Below, piece after piece: positions 46,464 to 52,129 of a stretch of 64,000 nucleotides of DNA; positions within the stretch are counted from its first letter, which is position 1, and each line of letters starts with the position of its first letter. Position numbers and translations under genes: made by a program. Source of the DNA: Brevibacillus laterosporus LMG 15441 (lineage in GTDB: Bacteria; Bacillota; Bacilli; Brevibacillales; Brevibacillaceae). The notes under the pieces are model-generated. The model was given only the letters and a program-made list of their open reading frames with translations, ran no database searches and was not told the DNA's origin. The DNA lies in contig NZ_CP007806.1 of NCBI RefSeq assembly GCF_000219535.2, forward strand, positions 3,010,501 to 3,074,500, read 5' to 3'.

Positions 46464-47888
46464 TTAAATTTTGAAAGAAAAAGTAACAGATGTTCCATTT
46501 TCGCTAGAAGCAATTTTCATGCTCCCTTTTAGTTTATCCTTAACATAGCTTGTTACAATAGATAAACCTAGGCTTTCTTGTGAACATTTATCAACCCTGA
46601 AACCTTTTCCATTATCAACCACTTCAAGAGTAGCATACTTCCCTTCGACACAAAGGGAAACCCTTACAATTCCCTCCTCACAATCGGAGAAAGCATGCTC
46701 GTAGCAATTCTGTAGCAACTCATTGATTATAAGAGCTATAGCAACTGTACGATTACTATCTATACAAATTTTTTGATTGGCTTCAATGCGTATATCAATC
46801 TTCTTACAATTAACAAAGCAACGTTGAATATTAGCTGCGATTAGCTCAATAACCTCAAGCAAATCTACGTTAGCTTCTATTTGTGTAGAGAGCAGTTCAT
46901 GCGTGGCAGCGATAGCTAATACTCTGCTAACGCTCTCATTCAGACATTTCTTTGCTTCTTCACTCTCACATTGTCTAGATTGAATACGCAGTAAGGAAGC
47001 TACGGTTTGCAAATTATTTTTAACACGATGGTGAATCTCACGAATAGCCACGGATTTTGAGATAATTTCAGCTTCCTTATCTTTAATTTCCGTTACGTCA
47101 TGCAAAATAACGACTAAACGTAAATCACGCTCATCAATCAACAATCTTTTTACCTGAAAGAAATACTTAGCAACATGTACATCTTTCTGGAATTGAGTCA
47201 GTTGGGTTTCATCAAATTCTCTCATTACCTCGACAAACAAGGTTTGATCTAGCGAGAGATTATCGTAATGTAAACCCTGTATATCTTCTAAATACCCCAG
47301 ATTTTTATATTGTCTATCCGCTTTGCTATTCTTGAGTTTTAAAAAACCATCTTTATCAAAGATTAAAATAGCGTCATCTAGCTGATTGATAACGGATTCA
47401 TTAAACCGGATCATAGCTGTTACGGTAGATGCTATATCTTCGTACTGGGAATCATTTTTCGTTACTTTAAAGTTCGCATTGACGTCTTCGCTTACATCTT
47501 TTTCATAGATAAGCACAGCGATGACTTTTCCATCTAAATGAATGGGATATACCGTCTGTCGAACCAATTGATTCTCTTGGGTTTTTGCAACAAGACCCAC
47601 TGACATAACCCCGGTCTCTAGCGTCCGGAGTACACCAGGCTCGTTCTCTCTTAAAGCAACCTCGCCAACCACTGGACATTGATAGAGAGATTGTGCAATC
47701 CCATGAGTTTGGTGGTAGACAACAATCGCTTCGTTCGTCACTTTTGAAAGGACATCGATAAAAAGGTCCCTTCCCTCCTGCAAATCAAATAATTCGTTTG
47801 AATGAGCTACTTCAATGATTTTCTGAATTTCAGCATCAGATAAATGAGTATGTTTTTTACACAATTGTGTAATTGTCTCTTTAATCAT
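46464..47888 (-). CDS. eutW: Ethanolamine sensor histidine kinase EutW
   Basis: 474 residues, no transmembrane segment. The N-terminal sensor region (about 1-140) is followed by a PAS-like region (about 160-265). The HisKA_2/HWE-type phosphoacceptor helix has IREIHHRVKNNLQT (His286/287), and the ATPase domain has NELLQNCYEHAF and VVDNGKGFRVD. It autophosphorylates in response to ethanolamine and passes the phosphate to EutV. It overlaps the eutV stop by eight bases and lacks a strong ribosome binding site, suggesting coupled translation. Confidence 0.92.
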   Translation of the reverse strand: MIKETITQLCKKHTHLSDAEIQKIIEVAHSNELFDLQEGRDLFIDVLSKVTNEAIVVYHQTHGIAQSLYQCPVVGEVALRENEPGVLRTLETGVMSVGLVAKTQENQLVRQTVYPIHLDGKVIAVLIYEKDVSEDVNANFKVTKNDSQYEDIASTVTAMIRFNESVINQLDDAILIFDKDGFLKLKNSKADRQYKNLGYLEDIQGLHYDNLSLDQTLFVEVMREFDETQLTQFQKDVHVAKYFFQVKRLLIDERDLRLVVILHDVTEIKDKEAEIISKSVAIREIHHRVKNNLQTVASLLRIQSRQCESEEAKKCLNESVSRVLAIAATHELLSTQIEANVDLLEVIELIAANIQRCFVNCKKIDIRIEANQKICIDSNRTVAIALIINELLQNCYEHAFSDCEEGIVRVSLCVEGKYATLEVVDNGKGFRVDKCSQESLGLSIVTSYVKDKLKGSMKIASSENGTSVTFSFKI

Positions 47889-48453
47889 AGGAAATCACGA
47901 TTGTGGTAGCGATTTCAATCATAGGACATCGTTTATCCATACTCAATTTACGAATCGTCTGATATGCTTCTTCTTCAGAAAAACCATTTTCTTTCATCAA
48001 AATACCTTTTGCCTTCTCAATTGCAATTCGTTCTTCTAGCTTTTGAGAGACTTTTGTATAGTTTTTTTCTAGCTTGCGAAATTCTTTTCCCTTGGCGATG
48101 GTTACTTCCACCATCGGAATGAAAGACTTTTCATCAAGTGGTTTTACTAGATAACCCAAAGCACCAATACTGGAAGCCTTTTCGATACTTTCTTTATCAC
48201 TAAAGGCTGTCAGCAAAACGACGCCACCAGCTAATTGCTCTGAAAGGATTCTTTTTCCCGCTTTTAATCCATCTAGGATAGGCATCTGAATGTCCATAAT
48301 CACTAAATCAGGCAAATGCTTTTTACATAACTCAATGGCTTCAAAACCGTCTGAAGCTTCCCCTACCACATTGTAGTTCGCTTCTTTTAAAATCTCACGA
48401 ATATCCATTCTTGTAATAGGCTCATCATCGACTACTACAATTTTTCCATTCAT
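47881..48453 (-). CDS. eutV: Antiterminator response regulator EutV (REC-ANTAR)
   Basis: 190 residues from the ATG at 48453. The receiver domain has Asp54 (LVIMDIQMPI), the acidic pair VVDDEP at the N-terminus and the conserved LLTAFS threonine. A coiled-coil linker is followed by an ANTAR domain at about 130-185 (IAIEKAKGILMKENG, then SEEEAYQTIRKLSMDK). Phosphorylated dimers bind paired hexaloop RNA hairpins and prevent termination. Three matching leaders are found in this operon. Confidence 0.94.
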   Translation of the reverse strand: MNGKIVVVDDEPITRMDIREILKEANYNVVGEASDGFEAIELCKKHLPDLVIMDIQMPILDGLKAGKRILSEQLAGGVVLLTAFSDKESIEKASSIGALGYLVKPLDEKSFIPMVEVTIAKGKEFRKLEKNYTKVSQKLEERIAIEKAKGILMKENGFSEEEAYQTIRKLSMDKRCPMIEIATTIVISYD

Positions 48454-48499
48454 GGGTACCACACCTCATTGTCTAAGCAAAATAAATACTTCCCAAAAC

Positions 48500-49484: not shown

Positions 49485-50624
49485 CTACTGAAACATTTTG
49501 TTCAAAATTCCAATAACATCTTCTTCCGTTGGCACACGTGGATTTGTTTTTGTACATCCATCCTTAAGCGCGCCTTCTGCAATCGCATTTCTCATTTCTT
49601 CCAGTTGCTTATACTCTATGCCACAATCCCGCAAATTCGTTGGCATTTTCAATTGTTTTTGCAATTGCTTGATTGCATTAATTAAGCTGCGCACTCCACT
49701 TCTCGTATTGCTTGCTGGAAGACCTAAGGTTTTAGCAATAGCTACGTATCTCTTAGCGGTCGCCTGATTTTCACCCTGACCATATCCTGTTCCACAATTC
49801 GCATTGAATTCGATGACATGTGGAAGCAGTAAGGAATTCATGCGACCATGAGGAATGTGGAACTTAGCTCCAGCTACATGGGCAATTCCGTGATTGAGGC
49901 CTAGTGATGTAACATTAAAGGCCATTCCTGCAAGGCATGAAGCATTGTGCATTTTTTCACGTGCCTCTAAATCATTACCATCCTTGTATGCTCTTACTAA
50001 ATATTCAAAGACAAGCTTCATCGCCTTTTCCGCTAGAGCATCAGAAATATCATTTGCTTTTGTAGACACAAACGCCTCGATAGCATGCGTCAAAACATCC
50101 ATTCCCGTATCGGCTGTAATAAAATCAGGGACGCTTTTTACTAGCTCTGGGTCTAAAATAGCTTCTTCTGGCGTCATATCATTCGACACTAGAGGGTACT
50201 TAATATTTTTTTGCTGATCACTAATAACAGAAAATGCGGTTACCTCTGATCCTGTTCCACTTGTTGTCGGAATCGCAATGAAAGGAAGGTCTTTTTGATT
50301 CGACACTTGTTTCGCAAAATATTTCATTGCTTTCGCTGCATCGATAGCCGAGCCTCCTCCTAGTGCAACAATCGTATCCGTTTCAAACTCACTGAGGGCT
50401 TTCATTCCACTTACAACAACCTCGATTGGCGGGTCTGGAACGATATCACTAAAAACCAAGTGCTTATTACTCGCGTCAATCTGGTCAATGACATGCTGAA
50501 TCATTCCCGATTGAACCATAAAAGGGTCTGTGACAATAAAAATTCGTTTTTCTTTCAGATCCTGCAGGCGATGTAGTGCGCCTTGTCCCATGTAAATATC
50601 TGTTTTAAAACTAACCTTATCCAT
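49485..50624 (-). CDS. eutG: Iron-dependent alcohol dehydrogenase EutG
   Basis: A 379-residue group III alcohol dehydrogenase. The cofactor loop is ALGGGSAIDAAKAM, with iron ligands in the GMDVLTHAIEAFVS segment and in LNHGIAHVAGAKFHIPHGR. It reduces acetaldehyde to ethanol and regenerates NAD for EutE. It lacks an obvious N-terminal targeting helix, unlike many eut enzymes. It is the first eut gene of the locus and has its own ANTAR leader and promoter. Confidence 0.93.
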   Translation of the reverse strand: MDKVSFKTDIYMGQGALHRLQDLKEKRIFIVTDPFMVQSGMIQHVIDQIDASNKHLVFSDIVPDPPIEVVVSGMKALSEFETDTIVALGGGSAIDAAKAMKYFAKQVSNQKDLPFIAIPTTSGTGSEVTAFSVISDQQKNIKYPLVSNDMTPEEAILDPELVKSVPDFITADTGMDVLTHAIEAFVSTKANDISDALAEKAMKLVFEYLVRAYKDGNDLEAREKMHNASCLAGMAFNVTSLGLNHGIAHVAGAKFHIPHGRMNSLLLPHVIEFNANCGTGYGQGENQATAKRYVAIAKTLGLPASNTRSGVRSLINAIKQLQKQLKMPTNLRDCGIEYKQLEEMRNAIAEGALKDGCTKTNPRVPTEEDVIGILNKMFQ

Positions 50625-50643: not shown

Positions 50644-50727
50644 ATAAAAAAAGAGGCTTTTTAGAAGGGAGCATACCCTTTAAAAGCCTCTTTGCTATCT
50701 ACATAAGTAACACGTCTTTGTGTAACC
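50644..50727 (-). promoter_or_regulatory. EutV (ANTAR) antitermination leader before eutG
   Basis: Minus-strand hairpin 1 centres on ACAC-AAAGAC-GTGT (about 50727-50706) and hairpin 2 on AGC-AAAGAG-GCT (about 50698-50683). Both hexaloops have A1 and G4. Hairpin 2 shares AAAGAGGCTTTT with the 5' arm of a strong terminator whose 3' arm is AAAAAGCCTCTTT and ends in TTTTTTT near 50645. This is the best terminator of the three leaders. Confidence 0.88.
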
Positions 50728-50748: not shown

Positions 50749-50778
50749 ACTGTACTACTATATTTACCATATAGTCAA
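50749..50778 (-). promoter_or_regulatory. Predicted promoter of eutG
   Basis: TTGACT (50778-50773), 18 bases, then TACAGT (50754-50749) on the minus strand. It would start transcription about 15 bases before the ANTAR leader. The -10 is weak. Confidence 0.5.
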
Positions 50779-50808
50779 CTATGTATTGATTGTTATTTTT
50801 AAAAACAC

Positions 50809-50882
50809 TATACACGTCTTTGTGTATAAAAACCTTTTGCATCAAAGGTTTGATATAATTCGGCAAGCACTGCATTGTGCCT
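50809..50882 (-). ncRNA. Cluster of three hexaloop hairpins in the 3' end of the B12-uptake mRNA (candidate EutV decoy)
   Basis: Between the ECF S-component stop and the eutG promoter, the minus strand holds three successive hairpins. They are AGGCAC-AATGCA-GTGCTT (50882-50865), AAACCTTT-GATGCA-AAAGGTTT (50851-50830) and TATACAC-AAAGAC-GTGTATA (50828-50809). All have six-base loops with G at position 4; two also have A at position 1. The last loop is identical to hairpin 1 of the eutG and eutA leaders. No terminator overlaps them, except that the middle one is followed by a short T-run. They lie on the transcript controlled by the cobalamin riboswitch. EutV binding is an inference. Confidence 0.5.
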
Positions 50883-50891
50883 GTTCAGTTG

Positions 50892-51443
50892 TCAAGACTT
50901 AGCAAAATGTTGATTTATCAATTTGTGCAACAAAGGAAGTAAAAGAGGTGTGAGTACGACATAAAAAACGAAATTCCCAATTGCATGCATCGTATCATAG
51001 GGGACTCCTGCTAGATAATAAACAAGAAAATAAGTTGAACCGTAAAGCGGTATCTGACAAAGAGAGTTAATAAACCCGTAAAGCATTCCTGTAAATCCGG
51101 CGTATATGGCCATCACGAACAAGGAAAACTTTGGAAACACAGGACGTATAAATATACCGGTTACTACGACAATTATACAGTACGCAATGATCTGCGGGAT
51201 AATCCAAATCCCGATTCCCAGGACCATATTTGACAAAATCATCACAATTATCGCAAGCAACAAACCATATTGAAGTCCCATCAGAATTGTCATAAGAATG
51301 ACAAATGTTGTCACGGGCTGTACGTTAGGTATGGACGACAGTGCAATCCGGCCAGCAACAGACAAGGCAGCTAAGATAGCTAGCAGCGTTATGCCTCTTA
51401 CACTGGATAGGGATGCTTTGTGTATTTGGTGGTTAGGAGGCAT
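50892..51443 (-). CDS. ECF transporter substrate-binding S component (probably cobalamin-related)
   Basis: 183 residues, about six hydrophobic segments, with the small-residue helices typical of ECF S components (AALSVAGRIALSSIPNVQPV and a C-terminal basic end). The start at 51443 has a modest GTGGG site; an upstream in-frame ATG overlaps the lipoprotein gene further. The ATPase and T subunits are not encoded here, as in group II ECF systems. Control by the cobalamin riboswitch and the transcobalamin-like partner indicate cobalamin or a precursor as ligand. Confidence 0.78.
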   Translation of the reverse strand: MPPNHQIHKASLSSVRGITLLAILAALSVAGRIALSSIPNVQPVTTFVILMTILMGLQYGLLLAIIVMILSNMVLGIGIWIIPQIIAYCIIVVVTGIFIRPVFPKFSLFVMAIYAGFTGMLYGFINSLCQIPLYGSTYFLVYYLAGVPYDTMHAIGNFVFYVVLTPLLLPLLHKLINQHFAKS

Positions 51444-51828
51444 GTAAATCCCACTTAATGACATCGCCATCTTTGACTTTAAGATCCTTGGCTCCTGTAA
51501 CCGCTGGGGCTCCGTTCACTTCGTATAACCAATACTTTTTCTCTGCTGGATTTTGCTTCACATCCTCAATTGACGTGATAAATCCATTATCGTCTTCCAC
51601 TTTAAAATTGGTTTTCATCAACTCATACAAGGTTTGATCCCCTTTGAATTGAATTGTTTTTTCGGCAATTTTGGTTTTGCCCTGATCGCTTGAAACTTCC
51701 ACAACGATCTTGTTTTCAACCTTTTCTTCTGCTAATGTGTTTTGCGCTACTTCATTATTTGAACAACCCACTACACTTACCAGCGCAAGTGCAATAAGTA
51801 AGGCGATTTGACAAACTCTTCTTACCAT
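51433..51828 (-). CDS. DUF4430 (transcobalamin-like) lipoprotein
   Basis: 131 residues from an ATG with AAAGGAGCGG upstream. The signal peptide ends in the lipobox LVSVVGCSN, so the mature protein is lipid-anchored at Cys22 or so. The rest is a DUF4430 domain, the fold shared with the C-terminal part of intrinsic factor and transcobalamin (DQTLYELMKTNFKVEDDNGF, YWLYEVNGAPAVTGAKDLKV, GDVIKWDL). It probably captures cobalamin or precursors for the S component encoded next, with which it overlaps by a few codons. Confidence 0.85.
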   Translation of the reverse strand: MVRRVCQIALLIALALVSVVGCSNNEVAQNTLAEEKVENKIVVEVSSDQGKTKIAEKTIQFKGDQTLYELMKTNFKVEDDNGFITSIEDVKQNPAEKKYWLYEVNGAPAVTGAKDLKVKDGDVIKWDLHAS

Positions 51829-51847
51829 TTCCGCTCCTTTCTCCATT

Positions 51848-52020
51848 AAAAAAGTCTAGTGAGGCGGGAACATCACTAGACATGGACTAACCACTTTCGC
51901 CTCGAAATGGTTAGCCTTTCAGTAGTTTTTAGGTAAAAGACCTGACTTAAGACCGGAAAACAGTCTATCACAGTGGCGGGACCGCGTTGGATTTGCACCA
52001 AACTTCCATTACCTAAAACT
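51848..52020 (-). promoter_or_regulatory. Cobalamin riboswitch with intrinsic terminator
   Basis: The minus strand carries the B12-element core: GGTGCAAATCC near 51992, then GCGGTCCCGCCACTGTGA containing the B12 box, an interior CCGGTC/GACTG region, and GGCTAACCATTTCG with its pairing partner. It ends in a perfect terminator, GTCTAGTGA paired with TCACTAGAC and followed by TTTTTT (51881-51848). The lipoprotein start lies about 20 bases on. Cobalamin binding should repress by termination. Confidence 0.9.
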
Positions 52021-52129
52021 ATTATTATTTACATGAATGAGATGTGACCCATTTGAAAATATTATAGCACAAGAAATGGACTTGACAATCATGCTGTTGT
52101 GACAAAATATAGTTGTATTCTTCCATATT

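Follow-up and report, generated by a model that had tools for sequence, protein, structure and literature searches.

EutX of Enterococcus faecalis and Rli55 of Listeria monocytogenes sequester EutV when B12 is low (reviewed in PMC5821096 and PMC8079631). Both RNAs are non-coding, about 300-450 nt long, and consist of an AdoCbl riboswitch with a terminator, followed by hexaloop hairpins for EutV. In E. faecalis, EutX lies just upstream of eutG and is separate from the eutG leader (PMC5821096), and it has a third single hexaloop beside the dual motif (PMC8934654). EutV recognizes a hexaloop with A or G at position 1, G at position 4 and a C-G closing pair (PMC3369931, PMC8934654); mutations of A1 weakened binding in E. 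faecalis (PMC3369931), and a single hexaloop has been redefined as the minimal EutV site (PMC8934654). Two other groups of RNAs bear a partial likeness to these decoys, namely, the ANTAR dual-hairpin leaders, here those of eutG, eutS and eutA, which have hexaloops of the same kind (A/G1, G4 and C-G closing pair; PMC3369931), and the flaA mRNA of Campylobacter jejuni, a coding mRNA that titrates the RNA-binding regulator CsrA (PMC4894983).

We analysed a 64-kb stretch of DNA from Brevibacillus laterosporus (hereafter the window), in which an AdoCbl riboswitch with a terminator is likewise followed, presumably on the same transcript, by an array of three EutV-type hexaloop hairpins (H1, H2 and H3), located immediately 5' of eutG and outside its leader (Table 1). 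However, whereas EutX and Rli55 are non-coding, the RNA in the window would be coding and about 1.25 kb long, with two genes (51828-50892) inside. With these genes between the riboswitch and the hairpins, the RNA falls outside the typical non-coding members of this group, although it appears to be derived from EutX and probably acts like it; the third hexaloop of E. faecalis EutX fits the three-hairpin unit of the window. Judging from the sequence comparisons below, we consider it likely that this transcript is a B12-gated EutV decoy of the EutX/Rli55 type, carrying two B12-uptake genes between its riboswitch and its EutV hairpins.

Table 1. Positions of the uptake operon, the hairpin array and the neighbouring eut features in the window
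Feature	Position	Strand	Evidence or detail
Promoter-like TTGTCA-16-TATAAT, TG before -10	52061..52088	-	Consensus match
AdoCbl (B12) riboswitch aptamer	51881..52033	-	Rfam RF01482, 118.7 bits, E 3.4e-22
Riboswitch intrinsic terminator, GTCTAGTGA...TCACTAGAC + T6	51848..51881	-	Fold scan
DUF4430 lipoprotein gene	51433..51828	-	PF14478, E 1.3e-19; ORF opens at 51846
CbrT-like cobalamin ECF S-component gene	50892..51443	-	6FNP, E 1.8e-30; ORF opens at 51470
Putative decoy hairpin H1 (= B of the EutX array), CAGGCAC-AATGCA-GTGCTTG	50864..50883	-	Loop AATGCA, 50876-50871
Putative decoy hairpin H2 (= C), AAACCTTT-GATGCA-AAAGGTTT	50830..50851	-	Loop GATGCA, 50843-50838
Putative decoy hairpin H3 (= D), TTATACAC-AAAGAC-GTGTATAG	50808..50829	-	Loop AAAGAC, 50821-50816
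U-tract TGTTTTT after H3	50801..50807	-	Probable weak 3' end of the uptake mRNA
eutG promoter-like TTGACT-18-TACAGT	50749..50778	-	Consensus match only
eutG leader hexaloops P1 and P2	50685..50726	-	P1 AAAGAC (50719-50714), P2 AAAGAG (50693-50688)
eutG leader terminator + T-run	50645..50693	-	Fold
eutG, iron-containing alcohol dehydrogenase	49485..50624	-	
eutV, ANTAR response regulator, presumed decoy ligand	47881..48462	-	PF03861
eutW sensor kinase	46464..47888	-	

A first-pass annotation made from the sequence had placed a cobalamin riboswitch and terminator ahead of genes for a DUF4430 lipoprotein and an ECF S-component, and each of these elements was recovered, the riboswitch by its RF01482 match, the terminator as a T6 hairpin and the genes by PF14478 and 6FNP. 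The terminator stands directly 3' of the aptamer, as it does in EutX; its hairpin occupies 51881-51854, a run of six T begins at 51853, and the energy is about -12.6 kcal/mol. Its sequence is conserved with the terminators of Paenibacillus EutX; the TGCTATAAT -10 element is kept 5' of the Paenibacillus EutX riboswitches, too. Our promoter/terminator scan performed near chance level for promoters and missed real terminators; therefore, we used a fold scan for terminators, which detected no strong terminator between 51848 and H3. The two genes overlap, and their longest ORFs overstate both of them (51828-51846 and 51443-51470). The DUF4430 gene probably starts at 51828 rather than 51846, because a ribosome site points to the ATG there and conservation agrees, while the S-component gene probably starts at 51443 rather than 51470, because congeners carry in-frame stops within the extension. 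The S-component is homologous to CbrT, matching one chain in the solved structure of ECF-CbrT, a cobalamin transporter (6FNP, E 1.8e-30; PMC5997447), and this homology and the riboswitch point to cobalamin as its substrate; NCBIfam gives it no name, and a plasmid search returned no match.

The hairpin array (50883-50808) starts 8 nt past the last stop codon, that of the CbrT-like gene. The three hexaloop hairpins that had been reported just 3' of the uptake genes proved exact, and all of them are contained in the minimum-energy fold (z -3.16 versus shuffles). The loop of H3 had also been described as identical to loops of the eut leaders, and AAAGAC does occur in both the eutG and the eutA leaders. 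The hexaloop rule (A1, G4 and closing pair) fits H1 and H3; in H2, position 1 is G and the loop is closed by U-A. The loop-to-loop spacing is 33 nt between H1 and H2, and 22 nt between H2 and H3. A covariance model of the array had four matches in the 64 kb, the array itself with 76.4 bits, and the eutS, eutA and eutG leaders with 12.8-17.5 bits. Although the array has its type of hexaloop in common with these dual-hairpin leaders, it differs from them in its location in a 3' UTR, in its three hairpins and in having no competing terminator arm; when the window was folded, no terminator sharing an arm with H2 or H3 was found. In the eutS leader (49411-49300), a hexaloop AATGAC is located at the presumed transcript start, followed by a AAGAGGCTCCTTAAAAA...TTTTTAAGGGGCC pairing.

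To place the array among related RNAs, we compared it with 20-kb loci gathered by a scan for EutV, comprising about two dozen from Paenibacillus as well as others from Enterococcus, Vagococcus, Isobaculum and Clostridium. The Paenibacillus loci have an AdoCbl riboswitch some 450-750 nt ahead of eutG, the interval being free of genes, and the riboswitch terminator is followed by hexaloop hairpins with loop-to-loop spacings of about 33-37 and 21-24 nt, as in H1, H2 and H3 of the window. Of 396 Paenibacillaceae genomes, 31 have the three-hairpin array under the covariance model, each in a single copy, and all 29 Paenibacillaceae arrays that were fetched (29/29) follow an AdoCbl riboswitch or B12 box at 170-177 nt without a long ORF between. 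Nine of 105 Enterococcaceae genomes have the array; a B12 box is located 94-161 nt upstream in eight of the nine, and a simple pattern found none for the ninth. The B12 box of Brevibacillus daliensis is 283 nt upstream of its array, and in a class-wide draw of 399 genomes the array appeared in four Brevibacillus only. A model built from 22 Paenibacillus sequences alone still detects the array of the window (45.7 bits, E 4e-9 in 225 kb), so the argument for homology is not circular. The hairpins, their spacing and their placement between riboswitch and eutG are the same, and the stems covary; the comparison shows that the array is a homologue of the EutV-binding part of EutX-type RNAs.

Two further observations concern these relatives. 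Most of the Paenibacillus EutX-like RNAs (L051-L071 and L078; e.g. L052:7376-7503) have four EutV-type hexaloops, A-D, of which hairpin A is GC-rich (gccgac-NNNGNN-gtcggc) and stands right after the riboswitch terminator, and in most of them a GGGA/TCCC stem brackets C and D before a T-run and looks like the terminator of the RNA. B. daliensis has a second eut locus (L047:3914-10648, on contig 29 of genome G027), which contains eutV, shows no eutW match between eutV and eutA, and has no B12 box upstream of eutG by pattern; the EutV encoded there may be an orphan that B12 does not control.

Among 27 aligned array sequences, 15 of the 21 base pairs show changes on both sides. Covarying cells numbered 60 versus 23.8 in shuffles, a number that none of 500 shuffles reached, and the signal was lost when the pairing partners were slid; RNAalifold, given no structure beforehand, arrived at these three hairpins as well. 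Each hairpin has G at loop position 4 in 27/27 sequences, and the closing pair is C-G in all 27 for H1 and for H3, in keeping with the determinants of EutV recognition in PMC3369931 and PMC8934654. Position 1 is A in 26/27 for H3 and, with a single exception (T) each in H2 and H3, is otherwise A or G, the G1 of H2 in the window recurring naturally (9/27 in H1 and 5/27 in H2), while positions 3, 5 and 6 are variable. When three species were compared, only two of 64 hairpin sites varied, each of them a loop position 5, whereas 3 of the 12 sites in the linker and 92 of the 257 fourfold sites did so (hairpin versus fourfold sites, Fisher p 1e-8; weaker against all coding sites, p 0.02). The eutG promoter/leader is equally conserved, with 2 of 44 sites varying in 50778-50735. 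Given this neighbour and the weaker contrast to coding sites, the pattern of changes is worth more than their number. What the sequence establishes is, besides conservation and covariation, which parts the locus has, their order and the homology to EutX.

These results bear on two alternatives. One is that the hairpins arose by chance and have no function, as the window has many short hexaloop stems; for structure and homology this is refuted by the homology, covariation and conservation, and we give it practically no credence. The other is that the array is a vestige, in which the insertion of the genes broke EutX and the hairpins remain only as a 3' terminator or stabiliser, with no meaningful sequestration. 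H3 with its U-tract could indeed act as a terminator, and two elements of the Paenibacillus RNAs, hairpin A and the outer GGGA/TCCC stem, are missing. However, differences between the three species fall on loop position 5 and the linker, with all three stems and the G4 of the loops left unchanged, and H1 and H2 have been kept though a terminator does not need them, hence we consider a mere vestige unlikely and favour a decoy in use.

How the coding version arose is suggested by its riboswitch. The riboswitch and platform of the window, including the terminator, are 76-83% identical to the EutX riboswitches of Paenibacillus and B. daliensis, as opposed to 60% and 46% for two AdoCbl riboswitches before DUF4430-CbrT pairs, and on this comparison we reject an import of the riboswitch together with the uptake genes. 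Such pairs are widespread and, as in the window, often stand behind a cobalamin riboswitch (e.g. L182-L185, L187 and L191), but unlike the window they are without the hexaloop array, which was absent from all 21 CbrT loci examined (0/21); the array is therefore not a general trait of DUF4430-CbrT operons. Since the riboswitch comparison groups the window with EutX, the simplest reading, on a weakly resolved tree, would be that the gene pair entered an EutX between its terminator and its array. The coding version was found only in three species-level genomes of the B. laterosporus group (G000, G029 and G030), and B. daliensis, of the same genus, has its eut locus without the two uptake genes. 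Among the named genomes compared, B. laterosporus (L050, EutV 98%) is the nearest. No other coding version turned up in the 29 fetched Paenibacillaceae, in the Enterococcaceae with a B12 box or in the class-wide draw. Vagococcus allomyrinae and Isobaculum melis (L073:1269-2070 and L087:2109-6301) have DUF4430/CbrT-like genes within about 10 kb of eut; this proximity of separate units supports a functional link without fusion.

At its 3' end, the array runs into a U-tract, and H3 with this tract is probably the uptake mRNA's own weak terminator (H3, -6.8 kcal/mol; eutG terminator, -21.5 kcal/mol); in B. daliensis, hairpin D is directly followed by seven T. Partial readthrough from H3 to the strong eutG terminator is likely, but whether the RNA ends at one or the other, it includes the array. 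The first-pass annotation had the readthrough RNA add the eutG leader hairpins and end at the eutG terminator. Some such readthrough is to be expected, but H3 with TGTTTTT offers a plausible weak end before it, where the mRNA probably stops; moreover, a promoter-like site and a complete two-hairpin leader, whose P2 coincides with the terminator's 5' arm, belong to eutG itself. The array is upstream of, and separate from, both. The same arrangement speaks to the idea that the hairpins are an extra eutG antitermination leader read from the upstream promoter, which would account for their position just upstream of eutG and for the loop AAAGAC in common. Yet none of the three hairpins competes with a terminator by a mutually exclusive overlap with one of its arms, and in E. 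faecalis the riboswitch belongs to a different transcript from the eutG terminator (PMC5821096). The hairpins cannot be the eutG leader proper, which has a P1 and P2 of its own, and an extra leader seems to us scarcely credible.

The presumed ligand is encoded nearby, the minus-strand order after the eutG leader being eutG, eutS, eutP, eutV, eutW, eutA, eutB and further eut genes. EutV of the window matches E. faecalis EutV (6WSH) with E 2.2e-73, and in the alignment to 6WSH it keeps R142, K147, K149, E160, Y164 and M172, which are RNA-contact residues in the solved EutV complex (PMC8934654); K143 is I here, unlike in the solved complex. From these data we infer a single transcript spanning riboswitch, genes and array, binding of EutV to the hairpins, sequestration sufficient to matter and a 3' end at H3. 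When AdoCbl is ample, the riboswitch would stop transcription at about 51848, giving neither uptake genes nor decoy, and EutV would be free to antiterminate the eut leaders. When it is scarce, readthrough would produce an mRNA of about 1.25 kb with the DUF4430 lipoprotein, the CbrT-like subunit and the three hexaloops, which would bind and sequester EutV and so keep the eut genes off even with ethanolamine present. Several points count against such a decoy: the G1 and the closing pair of H2, the I in place of K143, the occurrence of the coding version in just three species-level genomes, and the position of H1, which is within reach of a ribosome halted at the CbrT stop codon. In addition, a translated mRNA of 1.25 kb may reach lower levels or decay faster than a small RNA.

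EutV-type sites on a B12-uptake mRNA, with H3 both a hexaloop site and a probable terminator, might also be read as regulation in cis, where ethanolamine-activated EutV binds the 3' UTR of the uptake mRNA and alters its 3' end or stability, which would tie ethanolamine to B12 uptake, sequestration being secondary. We deem this very improbable, for the relatives carry the array on a gene-free RNA with nothing to regulate in cis, an RNA whose function is known to be the sequestration of EutV (PMC5821096, PMC8079631). There is perhaps a slim chance that control runs in both directions, the 3' UTR sequestering EutV at low B12 and EutV on H3 altering the 3' end or stability of the mRNA, so that ethanolamine would raise B12 uptake.

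The first-pass proposal of EutX/Rli55 logic built into a protein-coding uptake mRNA is thus supported by comparison, the array and the riboswitch both being those of an EutX-type RNA. As it had proposed, what sets the locus apart is the two uptake genes between riboswitch and decoy; the locus is probably EutX in modified form rather than the same logic arrived at a second time. A coding decoy of the EutX type was not found in the literature searched, which did not extend to the two founding papers. Since mRNA sponges of RNA-binding proteins are already known, as in the case of flaA and CsrA, the principle is not new; the window differs from that case in its regulator, a two-component response regulator, in the 3' UTR site and in the riboswitch gate. 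If the decoy reading is true, the locus would represent a riboswitch-gated sponge of a two-component regulator inside a protein-coding mRNA, in which one riboswitch decision couples the scavenging of a cofactor to the repression of a pathway that needs it. It would also be an example of a regulatory RNA that gained genes while staying regulatory. More generally, EutX-type decoys are widespread in Paenibacillaceae and have a conserved three-hairpin unit in common, which provides a comparative handle on the number of hexaloops that a decoy needs.
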